Assembly: GCA_014377845.1 (NCBI GenBank)
Contig: JACMOV010000039.1
Coordinates: 1-64,000, forward strand
Origin: Herminiimonas sp.
Lineage (GTDB): Bacteria > Pseudomonadota > Gammaproteobacteria > Burkholderiales > Burkholderiaceae_D
Length of the DNA: 64,000 nucleotides
Reading direction: 5' to 3'
The translations under genes were made by a program, and so were the position numbers. Positions 1-58,347 of this stretch are shown here, piece after piece (position 1 is the stretch's first letter; every line of letters starts with the position of its first letter). The notes beneath the pieces are model-generated. The model did not search any database. It saw nothing but the letters and a program-made list of their open reading frames with translations, and was not told the origin of the DNA.

Positions 1-2
1 CA

Positions 3-248
3 GGGGCTGGCGATATGACAGAACAGGCGCTTCGTGATGCATCAAAGCACTCCAATGCTGTCCTCTCGCAAATGAGTCCAGACATCCAATGGGTTCATAG
101 TTATGTTGCCGGTGACAAAATCTATTGCGTGTACAACGCACCAACTGAGGAACTGATTCGCGAGCACGCCGAGAAGTCAGGATTTCCCGCAAACAAGATT
201 ACTCCGGTTAGTGCCGTAATCAGTCCGGCTACGGCTGATGGCAAGTAA
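3..248 (+). CDS. DUF4242 family protein, 5'-truncated by window edge
   Basis: The reading frame is open to the first base, and residues encoded before the first in-frame ATG (GAGD) fit the DUF4242 pattern, so the real start lies upstream of the window. The visible part carries the family's hallmarks: a segment QWVHSYV, then DKIYCVY, then an IREHA helix followed by GFPANKI. DUF4242 proteins are small ferredoxin-like-fold proteins; a nickel-binding Streptomyces member is known, but the function here is not established. It is on the same strand as the hydrolase that starts 276 bases downstream. It is probably cargo of the integrative element because no intact target tRNA is seen between it and the integrase. 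Confidence 0.75.
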   Translation, partial: GAGDMTEQALRDASKHSNAVLSQMSPDIQWVHSYVAGDKIYCVYNAPTEELIREHAEKSGFPANKITPVSAVISPATADGK

Positions 249-452
249 GAGCATACGATTTATTTAAGCCTAATCCGTTCCGTACTTCAAACCGCGATAA
301 GGTCCCAGGGCTAATTGGCCAAATTCAGGCGTCGAGAACACGTTCAGAAAAAATGTGTACGGCTGATTCGGGTCGCGTCTGGTCGTTCGACACTGGCGGT
401 ATCGGCCATGAGCCGACCGTCGAGTGTGGAGGCAATTCGGTGATATTAGGAA

Positions 453-470
453 ACTTTTCTTTAGAAAAGT
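453..470. promoter_or_regulatory. Perfect 8+8 bp inverted repeat upstream of the hydrolase gene
   Basis: ACTTTTCT and AGAAAAGT are separated by two bases, in an AT-rich patch 54 bases before the hydrolase start. The size and symmetry fit an operator for a dimeric repressor. No regulator gene is adjacent in the window, so the link is an inference. The rest of the 276-base gap (249-524) shows nothing else I can support. Confidence 0.35.
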
Positions 471-524
471 ACGTATCTTTAGCAATTCGTTAGGCTGCGC
501 AACCGTTACCGCGAGGACATCGAC

Positions 525-1322
525 ATGCCAATCGCTCACCCATATGTCCGAGAAGCTGGGAAGGGACCAGGAGTAGTCTGCATACATGCAAATGCCAGCA
601 GTTCAGCGCAATGGCGCGACCTCATCGAACTGCTATCCGGGAACCATCGGGTGCTTGCTCCCGACTCGTACGGCGCAGGCAAGAGCCCCGATTGGCACTC
701 TGATCGCGAAATCGCCCTGCAGGATGAGGTCAACTTTATTGAACCAGTATTCGAGCTTGCCGGTTCACCTTTTACCCTGGTCGGACACTCCTACGGCGCG
801 GCTGTCGCGTTGATTGCGGCTCTGGCCAATCCGGGGCGTATCCGCGCTCTTGCGATGTATGAGCCGACGCTATTTGCGCTTGTGGACGGGCAGAGCCCCC
901 CGCCCAACGGTGTGGATGGCATCCGCAATGCCGTGTACGCCGCAGTCGAAGCGTTGGACGTCGGGGACAGTGATGCCGCAGCCGGACATTTCATCGACTT
1001 CTGGATGGGCACTGGCAGTTGGAGTGCCACTCCGTCCCAGCGCAAGCCGGCAATAGCCGAGTCGATGGCAAACGTTCGCCGGTGGTCCCATGCGCTGCTA
1101 GCGGAGCCCACCACAGTCGATGCTTTTGCCGCACTGGACATCCCAATACTGTACATGCTTGGTGGATCGTCTCCCGAATCAGCACATGCAGTAGCACGGG
1201 TTTTGCTCCCTGTTCTGCGCGGCGCACGGGTTGTAGAGTTTCCCGGCCTTGGCCACATGGCCCCGGTTACCCATCCTCAAGTCATCAATGCTGAGATCGC
1301 AAAATTTCTCAACGAGGTCTAA
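525..1322 (+). CDS. Alpha/beta-fold hydrolase
   Basis: The 265-residue protein has the canonical single-domain alpha/beta hydrolase layout. The oxyanion segment IHANASS lies near residues 20-27, the nucleophile elbow GHSYG at 87-91 (Ser89), and the catalytic-histidine motif GLGHM at 241-245 (His244). The acid residue normally found after strand beta-6 or beta-7 is not obvious: the expected GxxD position reads GGSSPES. No signal peptide is present, so a cytosolic esterase, epoxide hydrolase-like or C-C hydrolase role is possible; the substrate cannot be inferred. It runs opposite to the element's core genes and looks like cargo. The ATG start fits the family N-terminus. Confidence 0.8.
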   Translation: MPIAHPYVREAGKGPGVVCIHANASSSAQWRDLIELLSGNHRVLAPDSYGAGKSPDWHSDREIALQDEVNFIEPVFELAGSPFTLVGHSYGAAVALIAALANPGRIRALAMYEPTLFALVDGQSPPPNGVDGIRNAVYAAVEALDVGDSDAAAGHFIDFWMGTGSWSATPSQRKPAIAESMANVRRWSHALLAEPTTVDAFAALDIPILYMLGGSSPESAHAVARVLLPVLRGARVVEFPGLGHMAPVTHPQVINAEIAKFLNEV

Positions 1323-1452
1323 TTTACTGCTCAACCCGGTCTGTTGATCGACTGCTTCTATACTTCCGACAGGCCGCTTTGGGTCGAACTGCGACATTTA
1401 CGAGTGGAACGCCGTTGGGCTACAGCCCCCTAAACATCAATCGTATCCTGCA

Positions 1453-2226
1453 TTAATGCGGCGTAGGACCCTGTTCGTTCGGCAATGATGGTGCTAGCGC
1501 CCAATTTCGTGCCATGTGTTCCTTTAGGGTTGCCAGCCGTTCTTTTTCGATCCCGAAATATCCCCACCCGGGGAATAAAGCCCTAGCCATTCCGGCGCCG
1601 GTAAGATTCCGTTGACGAATAAGAAGCCAGTCTGCAATGTCATGCGGCGTGCTGTAATCGGCAGAAAAACCGTAGTTAGCGATATCAAACGCATCTATCG
1701 GCCTAGCCAAGTCGAGCAAGTCACAAACCGACTCCGCACAAGCGCGGCGAACCGATTGCAACCGACTATGCTTTATTCCAGCTTCTACCAACCAATGGAG
1801 GACCATCAGTTCTTCTACTCGGTGACGGGCAAGGCCATCTTCGATTGCAGGGATGTTCAGCACTACTCCGGTGCCCTGTGGGGTCTGCTGCTCGGCACTG
1901 CTTGCCGGGATGTTCACAGTAATTGCGCCGTTAGAAAGCGATACCCCTTCAATGGCTACACGCGCCGTCTTAAACGCTTTGTCTAGAAGCTGCTGGGTCG
2001 CATCCTCGCCGAAGTCGAAGAACAAGAGGTGCAATTGTGCAGTGGCACGCATGACATAAATTTCAATCAGGCGTTGCTCGGCTGCGGCGCACACCTCGTT
2101 GTCGTTCGGCACCTTGCCAGTTGTGCCGTTAGCGCGTTGGATGGTGTCAAGAATCAGCCTCGTGGCCGGGGTGCAGACAGGCAGGACTTTGCGCAGCGAT
2201 GGGGCCGATACTGTAGCTATGTACAT
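1453..2226 (-). CDS. Hypothetical protein of the integrative element
   Basis: This 257-residue protein matches no family I recognise. The start at 2226 is chosen because an AAAGGAAA ribosome-binding site lies just upstream; an in-frame extension to 2370 would overlap the preceding gene. The N-terminal half is helical. The C-terminal half contains HRVEELMVLHWLVEAG and a segment rich in Trp and Arg (DIADWLLIRQRN). It has no signal peptide or membrane segment. It begins 26 bases after the 96-residue gene and is probably co-transcribed with the primase gene. Confidence 0.6.
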   Translation of the reverse strand: MYIATVSAPSLRKVLPVCTPATRLILDTIQRANGTTGKVPNDNEVCAAAEQRLIEIYVMRATAQLHLLFFDFGEDATQQLLDKAFKTARVAIEGVSLSNGAITVNIPASSAEQQTPQGTGVVLNIPAIEDGLARHRVEELMVLHWLVEAGIKHSRLQSVRRACAESVCDLLDLARPIDAFDIANYGFSADYSTPHDIADWLLIRQRNLTGAGMARALFPGWGYFGIEKERLATLKEHMARNWALAPSLPNEQGPTPH

Positions 2227-2252
2227 ATTTTTCCTTTTCGGTAAGGTTGGGA

Positions 2253-2543
2253 TCAGGTAGCGCCGAGACAGATTGATGCCAGGGACGGGCGACCACGGGC
2301 GAGCTTTGGGGATTTCCCGAATGGTTTGGGCGGCACCCAGATAACTGACGGCGTGCCGGATAGTCGGCACACATCACGGGTCCACCCGGCTAGACGCAGC
2401 GGCAGTGCAATTTCAGCCATTGGCAGGTGCAGTGCGATTTCGAGATCCTTGGGCCTGATAAACAGCGGGCGACGTTCATTCGGCACTGATGCCCACCACA
2501 AAGCTACTTGGGTTGACCGCCTTGCTAGCATGCTGATGTTCAT
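2253..2543 (-). CDS. Small hypothetical protein of the integrative element (96 aa)
   Basis: The start at 2543 is supported by an AAGGAAG ribosome-binding site. The same frame is open further upstream through the repeat region, but that extension translates into low-complexity His/Gly/Thr sequence and is rejected. The product is basic and rich in Arg and Pro at the C-terminus, with a central amphipathic stretch (LEIALHLPMAEIALPLRLAGW). I do not recognise the family. It lies directly downstream of the repeat-rich gap following the primase gene, so a role in replication or copy control is possible but unproven. Confidence 0.5.
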   Translation of the reverse strand: MNISMLARRSTQVALWWASVPNERRPLFIRPKDLEIALHLPMAEIALPLRLAGWTRDVCRLSGTPSVIWVPPKPFGKSPKLARGRPSLASICLGAT

Positions 2544-2878
2544 GTTGCTTCCTTTACTTCGCTGTTTAGTTTCTTGGGGTAATCCGTCCACTTTGCCCCA
2601 CTGTAAATATGCTTTACCGTGGACGGATTTTGGAGGGTGAAACCTAGCATTCATGCGGGTTCCGAGGCGATCCGTCCACGGCGTCCACGGTAATTCCACA
2701 TTCGCGTATAAACACGGCACGCACGGCGATTTTTGTAAGTTTGCAGCCGTTACTTTTTTTATTTCTGAATAAAAAATATAGTGGCCACCGTGGCCACCGT
2801 GGCCAAACCCTGTATTCATGCGGGTTGCCGCCGTCCACGGTGTTTTTGCCACCGTGGCCACCGTGGACGCCTTGCCGC
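2544..2878. other. Candidate iteron-type replication origin next to the primase gene
   Basis: This 335-base non-coding gap is packed with short repeats. GTCCACGG occurs at 2674-2681, 2683-2690 and 2833-2840. GTGGCCACC occurs tandemly at 2781-2789 and 2790-2798 with a partial third copy, and related CCACCGTGG units lie at 2849-2866. ATTCATGCGGGTT is repeated at 2649-2661 and 2814-2826. AATCCGTCCA (2581-2590) and TGGACGGATT (2620-2629) form a perfect inverted repeat. An AT-rich tract occupies about 2751-2780. Clustered short repeats plus an AT-rich tract beside a primase-helicase gene is the layout of P4-like satellite and plasmid origins. Origin function is an inference. Confidence 0.45.
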
Positions 2879-5410
2879 TCACTCATCCGGCCAATCGGGC
2901 GATTCAATGCCCGCGTGATTGCAGAATAGGTACCGCGCCTCAGTAAGTGGCGGAACGATCCAGACATAGTGGCGACTGCCGTTGCCTCGCCGTCTCCTCG
3001 GCAACGTGCCGAAGGCCGCCTTCAGCTTGGCCGCTACGTTTTTGGCATCGGTCGGTTCGTGCCGCCGCCCATGTGCCGCGCAGTATTCCGCGTAGCTTTT
3101 CGTGACCAATTGGCACGGTGCGTCGGTTTCCCACTCATCGCCGCCCCACAAGCTACCGTCGTACAACTGGGATTCAAGCCACTTCAGAAACGGGGGCATG
3201 CTCAGCCGCTTTTGGTCGTCCAGCGCCTCAGTGTTCGGAATGTCACGGATGTTGAACTTGGACAGGTTCAGGTTTAGCAGGAAGTTGAGCGTGGCACCGC
3301 GCCCGCCGCCGTCGAGCCAGGCGTTTAGTTGCTTCCAATAGGCCCAGTCCCCGCGTTTCGTGTCGGGCACATCAACTACAAAAAACCGTCGTGAGGTTGG
3401 CCCAGCAGGCACTGCCCATTCGTTGTTAGTCGCTATCATGACTTTCAACCGATTGAGCGCCATGAATGCATCGACGCCTTTCTGCTCGATCATGATCTGA
3501 TCCTCAGTAATGAGTTGCTTTAGCACACCCTCCGCCGCCGGGTCGCCCGCCCAATACCCCTCATCGACGAACAAGAACAGGGCTAGGCGCAGGTGAGCAT
3601 TGAAGTTGCCGGTCAGGTGCCGCCCGTTGGAGATATGCAACGCATGCGGGCCGAATATGGAAGTCAGTAGCCTTGCATTGGTGCCCTTGCCGGTTCCCTC
3701 AGCACCGCGAAATACCACTACGGTTTCTGTACGGTCACCGGGACGTTGCACGCAGAAGGCCATCCACTGCACCAGGTATCGGAAAGACTTTGAATCATTT
3801 CCCACGGTCGCTCGCAGGTGCCGAAGGAAGCGCCCTGCGCTTGCTGAATTGACCTCAACAGCTAGCCCTTTGTACAGGTTGTAAAACCCCGCTGGCGACT
3901 GACCGTCGAAACAAAACCCCATACCGGAATACTCCCGCCGATAAGGTGACGCCCTCCAATACGCAGCCAAGTTCACCTGCTTCACGCCGCCGTCGCGTTG
4001 AACTATCGGCACCGACTGATTTGCATACTCCAGCCGGAACGCACCATCTGAAACTTGCTTCATGCCGGGTTGCCCTGTCTCCGTGTCCGTGAATTCGACG
4101 AACAACTTGCACTCTCCGCCCTCTGGCGCGACAAAGTACCTACCGTTCACCCTCTCGACCTGGTCGGCGATTTCCTTTGGCAGTGCTTGCAATGCCGCCG
4201 TCGGATTTTCCCGTCGTTCCAGTAGCTGCGCCGCGTGAATCGGGGTCGATGCTCTGCCCTTGAATTGGCACTCACCACACCGCGCACCAGGCACCTGCGC
4301 TGCAATGGTCGAGCACCGGGGTGGCCCACCTGTCAGGCTTGCCATTTTTCGCATTGTTGCTGCACTGTCGTAGCCCGGGTAGGTACCGAACAACACGTCC
4401 GCCGCTTCCTGGGGGTCGCTGGTGTGAGATGCAACGCCCATAAAAAGCAGGTAGTTCCCGTATTCATTGCTTCCTGTTAGCGCTGGATCGCGGATTGTTG
4501 GGCAGGCCCTCCGCGATTGCGAGATAGACGGCTCGACTCGCTTTTCCAAATCGCCAAGCAGTACCGTCGCCTGGCTCTTTTGAGTAGCTGGGCTAGATTT
4601 CACCGCACCGTTAGCCAGCCCAGCCCGTGCCTCACATTGTTGAAGCTGGGCCAGTGTGATATCTCCAGACTCTCGGATCACATGGACTCGATTGCCGTTG
4701 TTGTGCAGCGAACCAACCGGGCGCAATATCCGTGCGCTATCCGTCGTAACCGTGGTGTCGATTTTTAGACCGTAGTGCAGTGTTATGCGGTGCAGCAGCT
4801 CTGCCGCCGCCTGCCACCTGGGCATGTCGGTAATGTCTTCCGCGAACGTGTAGTACAGGTGCAAGCCGTTGCCAGATTTCACGATCAACGATGCAATGAG
4901 ACCGGACCGGTCCTCGAACGTCGCAACCGCTGCAAGCGCATCTGTTACCGACGCGTAGACCTTATCGCCATGCATCGCCACTTTCTCAGGCCCGGCGTCG
5001 ATGTCGAGCCGTAAAGCCTTACCGGCAACCACGTTCACTTGGCGTCGTTGCTCCCTGTCGTCAAACCCCATCGTGCCGCAATAAACGTCAGGGGTTCTCG
5101 ATCGCTGCTCGGTGGCTGTAACGACAGCCGCCTGGGAGTTATGCCACGTGTGCTTCATCCCATAGTGCTTTTTTTCGACAAGGCAAAACCGTCCGACACT
5201 TGGCAGAATCCGCTCGTAGAACCGCGCTACACCCATGCCGGTGTCAGTCTGGGGAATTACAACGATTTCGCGTGGTCCAGCCTCGTATACAGTGCTTTTC
5301 TCCGCCTCAACGGCGGGTTCATCGAACAGCAGTACGTTACCTGGAGCATCGTTGGTGAGGCCCGCCATGGCCCCGACTAACCATGCATCGACGTTGAGAT
5401 CGTCACTCAT
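2879..5410 (-). CDS. Primase-helicase (AEP-like primase plus DUF5906-type ATPase)
   Basis: The 843-residue protein has two recognisable parts. The N-terminal part resembles an archaeo-eukaryotic-type primase: acid pair LDID (136-138) and SGNGLH with His184. The C-terminal part is a superfamily-3-like/D5-type ATPase: Walker A GAEGTGKGT at 569-577, Walker B-like FLFVDE near 612-617, and TNNEWAVP with a following Arg pair near 661-675. Such fusions start and unwind replication of phage satellites, prophages and plasmids. The start at 5410 follows GGAGG and overlaps the upstream stop by 8 bases; an ATG at 5425 lacks this signal. It ends directly at the repeat-rich candidate origin. Confidence 0.85.
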   Translation of the reverse strand: MSDDLNVDAWLVGAMAGLTNDAPGNVLLFDEPAVEAEKSTVYEAGPREIVVIPQTDTGMGVARFYERILPSVGRFCLVEKKHYGMKHTWHNSQAAVVTATEQRSRTPDVYCGTMGFDDREQRRQVNVVAGKALRLDIDAGPEKVAMHGDKVYASVTDALAAVATFEDRSGLIASLIVKSGNGLHLYYTFAEDITDMPRWQAAAELLHRITLHYGLKIDTTVTTDSARILRPVGSLHNNGNRVHVIRESGDITLAQLQQCEARAGLANGAVKSSPATQKSQATVLLGDLEKRVEPSISQSRRACPTIRDPALTGSNEYGNYLLFMGVASHTSDPQEAADVLFGTYPGYDSAATMRKMASLTGGPPRCSTIAAQVPGARCGECQFKGRASTPIHAAQLLERRENPTAALQALPKEIADQVERVNGRYFVAPEGGECKLFVEFTDTETGQPGMKQVSDGAFRLEYANQSVPIVQRDGGVKQVNLAAYWRASPYRREYSGMGFCFDGQSPAGFYNLYKGLAVEVNSASAGRFLRHLRATVGNDSKSFRYLVQWMAFCVQRPGDRTETVVVFRGAEGTGKGTNARLLTSIFGPHALHISNGRHLTGNFNAHLRLALFLFVDEGYWAGDPAAEGVLKQLITEDQIMIEQKGVDAFMALNRLKVMIATNNEWAVPAGPTSRRFFVVDVPDTKRGDWAYWKQLNAWLDGGGRGATLNFLLNLNLSKFNIRDIPNTEALDDQKRLSMPPFLKWLESQLYDGSLWGGDEWETDAPCQLVTKSYAEYCAAHGRRHEPTDAKNVAAKLKAAFGTLPRRRRGNGSRHYVWIVPPLTEARYLFCNHAGIESPDWPDE

Positions 5411-5909
5411 CGCGCGCCTCCACAACTTCTACCAGCTCAATATCAGCAGGCTCCCGCAGCGCCCGGTTGACCTGAACGGGGTTGGTGTTGATGATGATTT
5501 GCACAGTGCCGCTGCTCTCCGCTGGCTGATCCCGTTTTACCTGTGCTTCGTCTCGCCGGTCCATCAGTGCAAGCGCCTTCAGGATCGTCTCGGCAAATTT
5601 CACCAGGTCGGTATTGCTGACGCCCTGTTCGCCGTTCAGTCGCTCGCTGATCTGCGTGACTACGTTCTTTAACTCGCGTTGCGCCTGGGCTTTGATGCCG
5701 ACGCCTGCACGCTCCAGGTCGACGGTGTGGCGCTTTACTTCCAGCATGAATGATGGGTCTGTCTTGTATGCCTGCATCTCCGCACCGGTCATCCCGAGCA
5801 GGGCAAGGGTGTTTGGCATGTCGCGGCCTTCCATATATGCCTGGGCAAGTTCATGGGCGATATTTTGGGCTTCGAGGGGTAGCTTGGTTTTGGTAGCTGG
5901 TAGGGTCAC
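5403..5909 (-). CDS. Hypothetical element protein, small-terminase/HTH-like
   Basis: The protein has 168 residues with an N-terminal helical region (YMEGRDMPNTLALLGMTGAEM) that could be a helix-turn-helix, then a long charged helical stretch (about 50-125), then a short beta-like tail. The shape recalls small terminase subunits or other phage DNA-binding proteins, but I cannot assign a family. Its stop overlaps the primase start by 8 bases, so the two are translationally coupled. No large terminase gene is in the window, which argues against a simple packaging role. Confidence 0.55.
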   Translation of the reverse strand: MTLPATKTKLPLEAQNIAHELAQAYMEGRDMPNTLALLGMTGAEMQAYKTDPSFMLEVKRHTVDLERAGVGIKAQAQRELKNVVTQISERLNGEQGVSNTDLVKFAETILKALALMDRRDEAQVKRDQPAESSGTVQIIINTNPVQVNRALREPADIELVEVVEARDE

Positions 5910-5921
5910 TGTGTACCCCGC

Positions 5922-6176
5922 TCAAACAGGGGCAGGGAAAGTAACCCGGTTACTTGCTAACCAGGCGTCGAGATCGGCCTTGAGGTAATAAACCCGTCTG
6001 CCGACTTTCACGTAAGGGATGTTGTGGCGCTTGCTGACGTTGTTGGATCTCAGGAATTGATCCGATGCACCGATGTAGAGGGCAGCGTCCGCCGTCGTAA
6101 AACGGTCGCGCTGGAAGTTAAACGTACCAATGCCGTCTTCGACTGGAAGTGCAGGGATTGTTAAGCTGGTTTGCAT
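5922..6176 (-). CDS. AlpA/excisionase-like helix-turn-helix protein
   Basis: The 84-residue protein contains a MerR-type winged-helix DNA-binding domain as found in excisionases and AlpA regulators: RFTTADAALYIGAS (helix 1 and turn), a recognition helix region ending NIPYVKVGRRVYY, then LKADLDAWLAS. In related elements such proteins control integrase expression or directionality of recombination. It sits 12 bases before the next gene of the primase transcription unit. A perfect inverted repeat lies about 63 bases upstream, which could be its autoregulatory operator. Confidence 0.8.
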   Translation of the reverse strand: MQTSLTIPALPVEDGIGTFNFQRDRFTTADAALYIGASDQFLRSNNVSKRHNIPYVKVGRRVYYLKADLDAWLASNRVTFPAPV

Positions 6177-6238
6177 GTCTGTATATCTCCGTAGCCCCGA
6201 TAGTTTCGGTATGGACGAAGTGTGCAGACAACATGCAA

Positions 6239-6256
6239 TTACCGGAATCGCGGTAA
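6239..6256. promoter_or_regulatory. Inverted repeat upstream of the HTH gene
   Basis: TTACCG and CGGTAA are separated by six bases. The surrounding 131-base gap (6177-6307) is the most AT-rich stretch of this part of the element and must hold the promoter of the replication genes. An operator for the HTH protein is the simplest reading, but it is an inference. Confidence 0.35.
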
Positions 6257-6307
6257 ATCGTATTTATTTAGGTAATTTGACCTCGTCGTTTATCACGGGC
6301 TTAGCAC

Positions 6308-6913
6308 CTACCACCGTCGCTTTGTCCTAGCCACGTCGCTAATACGACGCTGCAGATTTCCCACCCACTTACTATACGGTTCTGAATCGGCTGACAGGCC
6401 ATGCAGCCGCGCTTCACGCTTTGCAGCAGTCTTGGCGCTGAACTTTTCCCCGCATGCTCTGGAAATCATCAGTTCGGTTTCGTATGCCGACTCGGCGTGG
6501 GTTTTTACTTGGTTTGGCAGCGGTATCTGGCGTGGCGCCCCGGGACCAGGGCCTGCTTGTTGTCTTTCGGGCCAGCCCGGTACGTGTAGCCCACGACGCT
6601 TAACCAGAGCATGCCTTCCTTTCACTGGGTATTGCGGATTCGGCGGCTTGTCGCTCTCCAGAAGCGCCTTGATCTCCCGTACTCGCGCGTCGGCGCGGGA
6701 TCGGCTTTCGGCGACTAGCCGAATTTCCTCTAAACCCGCCTCTGCCTTGTAACGTCCCTGGCTTTGGGCGATATATTGTTTCAGCGCAGTACGTGCTAGT
6801 AGTTCGGCGTCTCCGACTCTAGCGTCGAGCATCCGTTCGTAAAGCTCATCGCCTCCATACCCGGCGCTAACCAGGTACCGGTACATTGCCTCAAATTCAG
6901 CGTCGTCTATCAT
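6308..6913 (-). CDS. Hypothetical element protein (201 aa)
   Basis: This highly charged, mainly helical protein has no signal peptide or membrane segment. Residues about 1-85 are acidic and alanine-rich (DAEFEAMYRYLVSAGYGGDELYERML), a central Pro/Gly linker follows (PGWPERQQAGPGPGAPRQ), and the C-terminus is very basic (TAAKREARLHG ... RTKRRW), consistent with nucleic-acid contact. I do not recognise a family. Its ATG overlaps the integrase TGA in an ATGA junction, so it is translated from the integrase transcript and may take part in recombination. Confidence 0.55.
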   Translation of the reverse strand: MIDDAEFEAMYRYLVSAGYGGDELYERMLDARVGDAELLARTALKQYIAQSQGRYKAEAGLEEIRLVAESRSRADARVREIKALLESDKPPNPQYPVKGRHALVKRRGLHVPGWPERQQAGPGPGAPRQIPLPNQVKTHAESAYETELMISRACGEKFSAKTAAKREARLHGLSADSEPYSKWVGNLQRRISDVARTKRRW

Positions 6914-8148
6914 GCCGCACCCGCCGACCTAAGGGTTACGACTACGTCCTCTGGATCAGTCGCGACAACTCGCTGCATGTGCGCGTCGTATTTGTCACAC
7001 CAGGGGCGCAGCCGTTCAGGCGCGATCACAATGTAATGCCCGTTGGTAACATCACGGCCAAGGCTATGCCCTAGCAACGCCTTGAGTGGTGTCATTGGAC
7101 AGTCCATACTTTCGAGTGTCGTGGCGTAAGTGCGCCGCAGGTCGTGTACCGTAACCTCTGTCCCTGCCGCCTTGTTTGCCCGTGCCAGCGCCTTGCGTGG
7201 CTCGGTCACGTGCGCCGGTTTGCCGTTTTTGTCGATCGATGGGAACACGTATTCCCCGGCTTTGATTGCCGTCATTGCATCCAGGAGTTCGCCGATCCGT
7301 TTCGTGATCGGCACCGTGCGCGGCTCGTTATCTTGTTTAGTTTCGGTGAAGGTCAAGACGCCCGACTGTCGGTTTACGTCCTTCCACTTCAGCCGTGCCG
7401 CTTCGCTACGCCGTGCCCCGGTAAACAGTATAAATTCCAGGTATGCCGCCAGAACACGATTGGGAACGGCACGCAGCGCCCGGACGAATGGCCGTATCTC
7501 ATGTGTATGCAGGTGGCCGCGCCGACGATTCGCCTTGACCCATGAGCGGCGACTGGTAAGGGTTGCCACCGGGTTAGTGCAATCCAGGTCGTAGGACTCG
7601 ATAGCAAAGTTCAATACGCTGCGCAGCACCCGCATTGCCGACGATGCTTGTGCGGTGCCGCGTGGCCCGGACTTCAATTGTGCATACCTGGCGGCGATCA
7701 TGTCGCCCGTTATTTCCGTGATCGGCTTGCCCTGCCAGTCTTGAAAGAATCCAGCAGTGCCGGGCTTTGGTTCGTTTGTCATGTACCGCAGGTAGTCGTA
7801 CCTGGTACGTGGCTTCAATTCCCTTTCGTTTAAGAAACGCTCGAATGCCAAACCCAATTTAATGCCGTCGCTTGCGGCCTTGCTTGCAACCTGTCTAGGA
7901 TCAATTCCTTTATCCATTTCAACGGTCAATCGGCTTGCCTCTTTGCGTGCCAGATCCACTGACCAGGCAGGGTATCTACCAATCGTCAAGCGCACAGATT
8001 TGCCATTGAACTTGCGGTCCAGGATGAAGGCCTTTGCCTTGGCGGTTGTGCGTACACCGAACCCCTTTAGCTCATCGTCCCAGTGCAGTGTCTGGCCAGT
8101 GGCCTGTGCAGGCAGGTTGTCTACAGTGCGTTTGGTCAGCTTCGGCAT
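6910..8148 (-). CDS. int: Tyrosine recombinase / integrase
   Basis: The 412-residue P4-type integrase has an N-terminal arm-binding domain of DUF4102 type (residues 1-85, with WDDELKGFGVR), a SAM-like core-binding domain (about 95-190) and a catalytic domain with Arg246 (TGARRSE), Lys271, His335/Arg338 (HDLRR), His361 (LLGHS) and the nucleophile Tyr372. The start at 8148 is preceded by TAGGAACG; an in-frame extension to 8232 is AT-rich promoter DNA. It lies about 180 bases from a tRNA-Thr fragment, the expected arrangement for an integrase acting at its own attachment site. Its stop overlaps the next gene by 4 bases. Confidence 0.93.
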   Translation of the reverse strand: MPKLTKRTVDNLPAQATGQTLHWDDELKGFGVRTTAKAKAFILDRKFNGKSVRLTIGRYPAWSVDLARKEASRLTVEMDKGIDPRQVASKAASDGIKLGLAFERFLNERELKPRTRYDYLRYMTNEPKPGTAGFFQDWQGKPITEITGDMIAARYAQLKSGPRGTAQASSAMRVLRSVLNFAIESYDLDCTNPVATLTSRRSWVKANRRRGHLHTHEIRPFVRALRAVPNRVLAAYLEFILFTGARRSEAARLKWKDVNRQSGVLTFTETKQDNEPRTVPITKRIGELLDAMTAIKAGEYVFPSIDKNGKPAHVTEPRKALARANKAAGTEVTVHDLRRTYATTLESMDCPMTPLKALLGHSLGRDVTNGHYIVIAPERLRPWCDKYDAHMQRVVATDPEDVVVTLRSAGAA

Positions 8149-8153
8149 GGTCG

Positions 8154-8211
8154 TTCCTACAAAATAAAATCGGGTCGCAATAATTATAACTTGTAGGAAG
8201 AATGTAGTAAA
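8154..8211 (-). promoter_or_regulatory. Integrase promoter with flanking inverted repeat
   Basis: Reading the minus strand, TTTACT (8211-8206) and TATAAT (8188-8183) are spaced by 17 bases, a good sigma-70 promoter 35 bases before the integrase ATG. TTGTAGGAA (8191-8199) and TTCCTACAA (8154-8162) form a perfect 9-bp inverted repeat around the -10 element; the proximal arm contains the integrase ribosome-binding site. GTAGTAAAT is directly repeated at 8204-8212 and 8244-8252. The layout suggests repression by integrase or the HTH protein. Confidence 0.5.
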
Positions 8212-8255
8212 TGTAGGTGCATACGGCTGCAAAGCTATGCAACGTAGTAAATAAG

Positions 8256-8324
8256 AAATCCCTTTGTATTCAATGCTTATGCATCTGTATATCTTCTGGT
8301 AAACATCTGTACATCAAGGGATTT
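8256..8324. repeat. Inverted and direct repeats flanking the att core
   Basis: AAATCCCTT (8256-8264) and AAGGGATTT (8316-8324) are a perfect 9-bp inverted repeat ending 4 bases before the tRNA-identical core. Between them CATCTGTA occurs twice (8282-8289 and 8304-8311). Such repeats beside a core are typical arm-type integrase or excisionase sites; that role is an inference. Confidence 0.4.
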
Positions 8325-8328
8325 AGAA

Positions 8329-8373
8329 TTCGTAATCAGTAGGTCGGACGTTCGATTCGTCTCATCAGCACCA
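8329..8373 (+). other. attR: 3' fragment of tRNA-Thr (anticodon CGU)
   Basis: The stretch reads as the 3' part of a tRNA: anticodon loop TTCGTAA with CGT at positions 34-36, anticodon 3' stem TCAGT, variable loop, a T arm with stem GGACG/CGTCT around TTCGATT, acceptor 3' strand CATCAGC, discriminator A and encoded CCA ending at 8373. The 5' half is absent: the preceding bases do not form D arm or acceptor strand. This is the usual outcome of integration into the anticodon-loop region of a tRNA gene, with the intact tRNA recreated at the far (left) end, outside the window. Confidence 0.8.
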
Positions 8374-8381
8374 TTAATTTC

Positions 8382-8417
8382 AAAAGCCAGCACTCGCGAG
8401 AGTCCTGGCTTTTTGTT
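8382..8417 (+). terminator. Rho-independent terminator of the tRNA-Thr gene
   Basis: The arms GCCAG and CTGGC, extended by an inner stem ACTC-GCGA-GAGT with one C-C mismatch, are preceded by AAAA and followed by TTTTT. It begins 9 bases after the tRNA CCA end, so it is the native terminator of the target tRNA gene displaced by the element. Confidence 0.85.
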
Positions 8418-57000: not shown

Positions 57001-57165
57001 ATGCGAAATACCGATGAAAACGTCGCTTTGCTCAAGGATCTCATGAAGGTGCCGCCGATGAGCGCGTCCCAACATGCGTTGATCATGCGTAAGCGAATCG
57101 AAGGTCGGCGGCTTGCCGAGGACGTTCGTGAAGCCTCTCGCCAGCGATCGCGGGACTTAAGCTAG
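57001..57165 (+). CDS. Hypothetical small basic protein (54 aa)
   Basis: The 54-residue protein is charged and helical (VALLKDLMKVPPMSASQHALIM). AAAGGA precedes the ATG. Its last codons and stop fall inside a tandem 13-bp repeat (57152-57197), so the natural C-terminus could vary with repeat number. No family is recognised. Confidence 0.5.
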   Translation: MRNTDENVALLKDLMKVPPMSASQHALIMRKRIEGRRLAEDVREASRQRSRDLS

Positions 57166-57197
57166 GGACTTAAGCTAGGGGCTAGGGACTTGGGCTA
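57152..57197 (+). repeat. Tandem 13-bp repeat at the end of the 54-aa gene
   Basis: GGGACTTAAGCTA occurs at 57152-57164 and 57165-57177, then a 7-base partial unit and a variant copy at 57185-57197 with GGG in place of AAG. Each copy carries a TAAGCTAG stop-containing sequence. It lies between the gene end and a GC-rich 150-base leader of the next gene. Confidence 0.65.
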
Positions 57198-57351
57198 GCC
57201 ACTTCCAAGCGAGCGGGCTACCCGCTGAACCACAATTTCGAGCTCCACATTTTCTTTTTCATGTAGTCCCCTTTGCGCCTGGAGCACGCCTTCATGGCGT
57301 GGCAGGCGCTACACCGAATCCCCTATCCCGGCAAGCAACGAGACCGACAAT

Positions 57352-57648
57352 ATGACGACAAGCACCGACCCATCCAACAGTTCAACCACCGCATCAACCA
57401 CCGCGTCAGCCACCGCATCAGCCACCGCGTCAACCACCGCGTCAACCACCTATTACGTTCTGCGCAGCCGTACCACCACGATGGGCGACGGCCCCTACGT
57501 CGGACTGGCAGCCGACGGTGCGCACGCCGTCGTGCCCGACGTGATGCAAGCCAGACGCTTTGCTTCGCTGGCCGAGGCCGAATCCTATGCCGGCGCAATG
57601 GGCGAGACGTTCGGCGACTTCGAACTCGAAGTCCGCACGGCAGCGTAG
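57352..57648 (+). CDS. Hypothetical protein with Thr/Ser/Ala repeat N-terminus
   Basis: The 98-residue protein has residues about 11-33 made of a Thr-Ala-Ser-(Thr/Ala) repeat, encoded by a 12-bp minisatellite, then a compact domain (YYVLRSRTTTMGDGPYVGLAADG ... FGDFELEVRTA). The repetitive start could be a variable linker. No signal peptide or membrane helix. It is followed after 72 bases by the next stress-like gene. Unknown function. Confidence 0.6.
   Translation: MTTSTDPSNSSTTASTTASATASATASTTASTTYYVLRSRTTTMGDGPYVGLAADGAHAVVPDVMQARRFASLAEAESYAGAMGETFGDFELEVRTAA
57388..57447 (+). repeat. In-frame 12-bp minisatellite (five units)
   Basis: Five consecutive units of ACCGCRTCARCC (R = A or G) encode a four-residue repeat, so changes in copy number keep the frame. 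A degenerate sixth unit precedes it. Confidence 0.75.
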
Positions 57649-57720
57649 AAACAGGTTTCTTCGGAACACCGGACCGCCGGATTCGTCCAATCAGCCTTCC
57701 AAAATCACATCGAGAACGCC

Positions 57721-58347
57721 ATGGCCCACATCATCGCAGGACACTTCCAGGAACAATCTCAGGTCGACCAAGTGATCGAGGCGATCCGGGAAATCGGCAT
57801 CCGGCAAGAGCAGATCAGCAGTTTTTACGTGAACCCGCCCGGCCAGCACAACCTGTATTCGATCGGCGGCGATCGTGACGAGTCGCCGGGCGCGCACGAC
57901 AGTAGCGCCGGCGTTGTTCGTGGCGCCGCAACCGGAGGGGCAATCGGTGCAGCCGCAGGCTTGACCGGCGCGCCGGTGTTCGGCCCTGTGGGACCCGCAG
58001 TCGGTGCGCTCGTCGGCGCGCACATCGGGGGCTTGATCGGCAGCTTGTCACAGATGACCGAGGATAAACAACCCGACGAAAGTGCGATTGACGTCGCCAA
58101 GCGCAATGTCGAACCACACCAGCGCAGTTCTGGCCTGATGGTTGCCGTCAGTGTCGATGACGCAGCGCCTTTGGATACCTCAGGTGTCGGGCGTAACCCG
58201 CAGCGAGAAATCGTCGATGTGCTGAACCGGTTCGGTGTGCGTGACCTGGAGGAAGCAGATGGCACCATCGTCGATGGCGATTGGCAGGATTTCAACCCGT
58301 TGGCGGTGCCACGCCTGATTGACCCGGCAACCTTGCGCGCCATCTGA
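57721..58347 (+). CDS. Glycine-zipper stress-type protein (208 aa)
   Basis: The protein has an N-terminal alpha/beta segment (IIAGHFQEQSQVDQVIEAIREIGI), a central Gly/Ala-rich membrane-active zipper (about 65-105, GAATGGAIGAAAGLTG, GPVGPAVGALVGAHIGGLIG) and a C-terminal soluble part with QREIVDVLNRFGVRDLEEADGTIVDGDWQDF. It resembles general-stress proteins that alternate a soluble domain with a glycine-rich helix hairpin, but I cannot name the family. It converges with the oxidoreductase genes. Confidence 0.7.
   Translation: MAHIIAGHFQEQSQVDQVIEAIREIGIRQEQISSFYVNPPGQHNLYSIGGDRDESPGAHDSSAGVVRGAATGGAIGAAAGLTGAPVFGPVGPAVGALVGAHIGGLIGSLSQMTEDKQPDESAIDVAKRNVEPHQRSSGLMVAVSVDDAAPLDTSGVGRNPQREIVDVLNRFGVRDLEEADGTIVDGDWQDFNPLAVPRLIDPATLRAI

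Follow-up and report, generated by a model that had tools for sequence, protein, structure and literature searches.

Near its beginning, the 64-kb stretch of DNA analysed here (hereafter, the window) carries a set of genes on one strand, ordered as a tyrosine integrase, an unknown 201-amino-acid (aa) protein, an HTH_17 protein, an unknown 168-aa protein, a primase-helicase, a gap at 2544–2878, a 96-aa gene and an unknown 305-aa protein (Table 1). The 3′ part of a tRNA-Thr(CGT) gene beside the integrase is likely the attachment site at the right end of the element: together with the next four bases, it is 98% identical over 50 bp to an intact tRNA-Thr gene and its flank in a family member. It was found at one side of the element only, with no second copy in the rest of the assembly, and a search for the empty integration site found no tRNA-Thr beside the right flank in the 8 relatives' loci that match that flank. 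The element appears to be integrated in the chromosome, in a window that begins at the contig start and is without the element's left end; genes for an SCO4226-like protein and an alpha/beta-hydrolase occupy this contig start (15–1322). Five element proteins gave no matches to defence families.

Table 1 Features of the candidate origin, the neighbouring genes and the tRNA-Thr site, in window coordinates
Feature	Position	Strand	Remark
96-aa gene	2253–2543	−	3′ of array; weak model, helices and a two-strand wing
Iteron ACCGTGGAC	2616–2624	+	Outer left
Second motif AACCCGCATGAAT, one copy	2649–2661	−	Shared with other host-family elements
Iteron GCCGTGGAC	2674–2682	−	Left inner set, tandem (9-bp) member 1
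Iteron ACCGTGGAC	2683–2691	−	Left inner set, tandem member 2
AT-rich tract	2740–2783	no strand	Separates the inverted inner sets; 75% A+T in 2744–2783, against 39% for the window
Iteron ACCGTGGCC	2787–2795	+	Right inner set
Iteron ACCGTGGCC	2796–2804	+	Right inner set
Second motif AACCCGCATGAAT, other copy	2814–2826	−	165 bp away, same strand
Iteron ACCGTGGAC	2833–2841	−	Outer right
Iteron ACCGTGGCC	2851–2859	+	Outer right
Iteron ACCGTGGAC	2860–2868	+	Outer right
Primase-helicase	2879–5410	−	843 aa; DUF5906 helicase domain; C-terminal domain a predicted winged helix
HTH_17 protein	5922–6176	−	84 aa; excisionase/AlpA-like
Tyrosine integrase	6910–8148	−	Arm-DNA-bind_3 domain
tRNA-Thr(CGT), 3′ part	8328–8373	+	Without 5′ half; beside integrase

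The repeat array and the primase-helicase

The gap is the most repetitive part of the window. It contains 51 repeated 8-mers, whereas 2000 dinucleotide-shuffled versions averaged 2.35 and never exceeded 11, and the three top-scoring 335-bp stretches among the 2547 taken window-wide in 25-bp steps all overlap it. In the second most repetitive stretch, at 57126–57460, TCAACCACCGCG-like repeats are arranged in tandem close to where ORF 57273–57878 begins. A preliminary description of this DNA had listed for the gap a set of repeats, an inverted repeat and an AT-rich tract, all immediately downstream of the primase gene; every one of these is present, and the gap indeed lies 3′ of the stop codon of that gene, which is on the − strand. 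The repeat inventory is correct in naming GTCCACGG, GTGGCCACC and ATTCATGCGGGTT and needs two amendments. Full copies of GTGGCCACC number three (2781, 2790 and 2854, with a partial copy at 2799), one above the claim, and GTCCACGG, found on the + strand at 2674, 2683 and 2833 and twice more on the − strand, is not a separate type, because the two are a single 9-bp unit, RCCGTGGMC, read from opposite strands. This unit has 10 exact copies in the window, 8 of them in the gap and 2 elsewhere.

The inner iterons (− − at 2674 and 2683; + + at 2787 and 2796) are opposed across the AT-rich tract, which is likely the melting site of a candidate origin, and perfect inverted repeats of 11–12 bp also occur in the gap (for example, 2617–2628 with 2670–2681). 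The core of the unit, CCACGGTGGCCAC, has three copies within the window and zero matches in the remainder of the 3.36-Mb assembly, in a search that apparently excluded the window; when the complete gap was used as a BLAST query against the same remainder, the matches were at chance level only (15–23 bp, best E 0.98). Although the frame of the 96-aa gene stays open across the gap (ORF 2253–2882), the array is probably non-coding, judging from related sequences, because the homologue P0027 is also 96 aa long with the same Met start, and because the frame at locus L016 is open for just five codons before the matching Met.

The 843-aa protein encoded beside the array matches the DUF5906 domain (E 2.4e-21) and also phage primases, with 423 phage records matching it, and its nearest primase relative, P0002, is 63% identical. 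Its N-terminal part, which we take from sequence motifs to be of the AEP type, has no Pfam match; residues 94–267 match a PHROG of the DNA polymerase/primase family (E 8.9e-10). The predicted structure has a mean pLDDT of 81, and Foldseek places the NrS-1 helicase, AsfvPrimPol and the SaPI5 primase-helicase (7ola, 7om0) among its best matches. For the helicase part, NrS-1 (6k9c, 6k9e, 6lrb), which unlike the window's protein comes from a phage, ranks first in the PDB in both structural and sequence comparison. Residues 762–832 are predicted to form a strand-helix-helix-strand-strand-helix arrangement (pLDDT block means 80–95), which we read as a winged helix. Among relatives, Prim-Pol, or Toprim with PriCT_2, are alternative primase domains joined to DUF5906; since the primase domains vary around DUF5906 in this way, we infer that the helicase part would be the reader of the array. 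The preliminary description had likened the locus to P4-like satellites. According to excerpts of PMC4234260, the P4 alpha protein has a Toprim domain; none was found when looked for in the 843-aa protein, and membership of the P4 group was rejected.

Homologous loci and plasmids

Our comparison covered 120 loci with a homologous gene: 7 from relatives, 25 from named genomes, 80 from IMG/VR (the best 80 of 138), 7 from plasmids (of 8 matching records) and the window. The relatives' loci came from the 6 of 101 genomes that matched, none of which belongs to the window's own genus, and on the named-genome contigs a single-protein search was without matches and an alignment-based search gave the 25 loci. 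Removal of near-duplicates left 86 non-redundant primase loci. The 500 bp 3′ or 5′ of each gene were scored against 100 shuffles, and an array was called strong when it exceeded 1.5 times the best shuffle and had at least 4 copies.

The 3′ flank beats all 100 shuffles at 21/31 genome loci, 6/7 plasmids and 10/47 IMG/VR contigs, and in the window, whereas the 5′ flank does so at 2/26 genome loci, 0/7 plasmids, 2/44 IMG/VR contigs and 0/1 window. The remaining 3′ flanks of genome loci (10/31) and IMG/VR contigs (37/47) score at or below the best shuffle. Strong 3′ arrays are present at 14 of the 31 genome loci, 4 of the 7 plasmids and 4 of the 47 IMG/VR contigs, as well as in the window. Because 3′ flanks are more often non-coding, other gaps longer than 250 bp in the same loci were tested as a control with 60 shuffles: all shuffles were beaten in 8/34 genome and 3/11 plasmid cases, and strong arrays occurred in 3/34 and 0/11, respectively, giving for the genome loci a Fisher p of 0.0014 for the 3′ flank against other gaps. 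When loci of at least 6 kb are considered, the most repetitive segment falls 0–600 bp 3′ of the gene in 9/22 genome loci (1.0 expected), 4/7 plasmids (0.38 expected) and 8/40 IMG/VR loci (2.1 expected).

The array units themselves differ by locus (ACCCTGGA, CCTGCACA, CCAGGACA, ACCTGTAA, ATTGTTCA and others). Two copies of the exact unit RCCGTGGMC within 350 bp were found in 0/112 primase loci, a result that led us to reject one conserved iteron for the whole gene family and that runs against an expectation of the preliminary description, namely the same repeats beside homologous primases. Relatives share the layout, not the exact repeat, each element having its own unit in a preserved arrangement. 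In 24 hand-picked strong loci scored with one fixed rule, the nearest iterons are inverted across the AT-rich tract in 19, and the spacing is 9 bp in 19. The window itself came out as not inverted under this rule, whose single 8-mer key does not match the GGCC variant; when RCCGTGGMC is used, its inner sets are inverted. When viral contigs were scanned for the tandem unit, at least 120 stretches were obtained, in none of which, among the matches listed, did the primase profile find a match; eight viral stretches with clustered units, again among the matches listed, are by eye coding or low-complexity DNA.

Gene content also varies between loci. At L016, which has an integrase upstream and a 96-aa homologue beyond the array, a 376-aa ORF without a Pfam match and a separate 512-aa DUF5906 helicase ORF replace the window's fused gene. 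At L325 (G030:C1:3933000-3946000), an iteron array and one copy of the second motif described below lie between a Toprim/PriCT_2/DUF5906 gene and genes for terminase, portal and prohead protease; an S24-type repressor is encoded close by, and we read this locus as a phage or a capsid-forming satellite.

Among plasmids, the circular L241 and L243 (from Roseomonas, 9720 bp, and Citrobacter, 9297 bp) carry the homologous gene with arrays 3′ of it, and their (incomplete) gene tables name no other replication protein. Like the window, the plasmid of Roseomonas sp. FDAARGOS_362 (NZ_CP024585.1) has a DUF5906 gene followed by ACCCTGGAC arrays in both orientations around an AT-rich tract, and the Roseomonas unit ACCCTGGAC differs from the window's ACCGTGGAC by one base; unlike the window, it is a circular plasmid of about 9.7 kb, with 34% identity over 52% of the protein. 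A clear array lies 3′ of the gene on pC-202212, pMP1 (7628 bp) has a 3′ array and a stronger array elsewhere, pMNOD07 has a marginal 3′ signal, and pEC224_4 has both an array and a RepB gene. The 3′ flank of pTH2c (L245) contains no repeat excess, and the most repetitive segment of the small plasmids L242 and L244 lies elsewhere than 0–600 bp 3′ of the gene.

A second motif in the host family

Besides the iterons, the gap contains ATTCATGCGGGTT at 2649–2661 and 2814–2826, and a longer form of this motif, searched with up to 2 mismatches allowed, has no further match in this genome. The form AACCCGCATGRAT occurs twice in the gap; at the corresponding position, with at most one mismatch, it also occurs in L009 (two copies), L012 and L017 (one copy each). 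In all, just 4 of the 86 primase loci carry it 3′ of the gene. The related string AAACCCGCATGRATA is strongly over-represented in the host family, being present in 103 of 393 genomes, with one match seen for the reversed control. Copies are most numerous in G159 (84), where several of those inspected are part of a longer palindromic repeat; the observation covers loci L261–L290 and genomes G159 and G333.

The surroundings of the motif are diverse. Of 30 fetched motif loci, three (L263, L264 and L268) have a DUF5906 gene by profile, and five (L262, L266, L267, L279 and L280) have a tRNA gene within 30 bp of the motif. The DUF5906 gene of L268, which Pfam also detects, stands beside an only weak array; this locus (in G204) was found via the second motif alone, and its gene is closer to the window's than that of L009 is (profile E 7.6e-109). 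A tyrosine integrase ends beside the motif in 6 of 10 open frames tested (L282, L283, L285, L288, L289 and L290). A search of 387 genomes for pairs of the motif, either 150–180 bp apart on one strand or inverted in one of the two orders, gave three loci, in G287 and G379 (DUF5906 stop) and in G313 (about 1 kb past a VapE-like gene), and G390 has a pair in the other inverted order past a Toprim/DUF927 gene.

A fixed-loop hairpin was tried as an explanation for the motif and rejected as not general: over 68 copies the mean stem is 3.28, against 3.03 for swapped arms (sd 0.11, largest 3.34), and neither copy in the window folds better than shuffled sequence (z −0.09 and −1.04). A search for the motif string in the accessible text of open papers, which is a weak test of novelty, gave one match, an unrelated E. 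coli engineering paper. The motif is found beyond primases of unlike construction (DUF5906, Toprim/DUF927), at tRNA genes and at integrase ends, and might thus serve mobile DNA generally as a signal for entry or priming. We tentatively consider, at odds well short of even, that the origins of the family's elements could be two-layered, combining private iterons for each element's own helicase with the shared AACCCGCATGRAT, which is paired 135–181 bp apart at several origins and would be read by an element-independent factor, possibly the host's. The shared motif is a separate and less explained lead.

A candidate origin and its alternatives

We interpret the gap at 2544–2878 as a candidate replication origin of the integrated element, predicted to be bound by the helicase and opened at the AT-rich tract, and give this reading a probability of about 0.85. 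An origin beside the primase-helicase had been proposed in the preliminary description, and this proposal gains, at the level of sequence, from arrays in the equivalent position next to many homologous genes, some of them on small circular plasmids, and from a genome that is otherwise without the core. The same description had called the locus a possible new replication module, a view that we do not share: published SaPI/PICI elements have the same plan of pri-rep then ori, an AT-rich region being flanked by two iteron sets, and a cloned PICI pri-ori was maintained in E. coli, according to excerpts of PMC6092414. As such origins are already published and tested, the window would hold a new member and not a new principle, a likely origin of known kind on a DUF5906 element. 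It is likely an iteron origin of the SaPI/PICI type, with the C-terminal domain of the helicase as the candidate binder. In the cycle that we envisage, excision by the integrase at the tRNA-Thr site would come first; hexamers of the helicase would then form, through their C-terminal domains, on both inverted iteron sets, the strands would separate within the AT-rich tract, and the same primase-helicase would prime synthesis for extension by a host polymerase.

A close parallel in the excerpts of PMC6092414 is the Gram-negative PICI EcCICFT073, in which an integrase, an AlpA-type regulator and a fused primase-helicase are followed by an ori; the window has the same plan, with the candidate origin in the place of the ori, and in both an AT-rich region is flanked by two iteron sets. 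The window differs in having its own iteron unit, and its helicase is of the DUF5906 family. PICIs are recognized by int, a regulator and a replication module with ori after pri-rep, and the window has int, HTH_17, primase-helicase and array in this order, with the array inverted around an AT-rich tract 3′ of the primase-helicase gene. They are also recognized by a size of about 12–15 kb without phage structural or lytic genes and by a unique att site never used by prophages; none of the ten ORFs scanned in 1–8400 was named as a phage structural or lytic gene, the element's left end being outside the contig, and PICI-type packaging genes, induction and a left end were not seen in the window. 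In SaPIs, origins lie just 3′ of rep, and in SCCmec the repeats that follow the Cch2 gene on its 3′ side are bound by the protein's C-terminal domain (excerpts of PMC7581432). These systems share with the window repeats directly 3′ of a helicase gene, but are staphylococcal, and the Cch2 site has just three 5-nt iterons in the same source. The Sulfolobus plasmid pRN1, as described in excerpts of PMC4234260, encodes a single protein with primase, SF3 helicase and winged-helix parts, a make-up like that predicted for the window's protein, and has an essential origin 3′ of its gene; that origin, unlike the candidate in the window, consists of an iteron-free stem-loop of about 100 nt. The PLE origin belongs to another system, which relies on a RepA_N protein (excerpts of PMC7145576). 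Among the papers listed in a search of the open literature, none combines DUF5906 and iterons.

The 96-aa protein might bind the iterons in place of the helicase, as a separate initiator that would load it. Its gene, which is likely real, follows the array; its single match in a protein search, P0027 (73% identical), is on a contig equal in size to that of P0002, and at L016 a distant homologue (E 5.7e-10) also follows the array. The protein, modelled as helices followed by two strands, is possibly an accessory DNA-binding protein, and its RGRP tail presumably resembles an AT-hook, but the model is of low confidence (mean pLDDT 55) and matches no solved structure. The other 118 primase loci, many of which have arrays, contain no above-threshold same-strand homologue within 2.2 kb past the gene (less in short loci), and we consider this protein an unlikely primary binder.

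Further from the origin reading, the repeats might regulate genes of the element as operators or terminators, as the self-complementary units and one terminator-like hairpin facing the primase transcript (2798–2780) could suggest. Yet terminator-like sites show no excess (2, against a shuffle mean of 1.1, sd 0.9), a search for sigma-70-like promoters was negative, no exact 9-mer occurs outside the gap within 1–8400 and the same plan is found on circular plasmids, which together make gene control in place of an origin improbable. A dispersed repeat or MITE that landed in the gap is disfavoured still more strongly and seems hardly credible. It would fit ATTCATGCGGGTT, which is part of a dispersed motif in other family genomes, and the earlier view that the repeat units are specific to the gap does not carry over to this motif in the wider family; for the 9-mer that view holds in this genome, where the core of the array is without copies outside the window, and in other elements the same position is repeat-rich with other units.

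The origin reading offers a simple rule for locating origins in uncharacterised integrative elements and small plasmids. One would search 0–600 bp 3′ of a DUF5906 primase-helicase gene for an AT-rich tract flanked by inverted arrays of about 9 bp, whatever the repeat sequence. The diversity of units among relatives opens recognition of iterons by the helicase to direct test.
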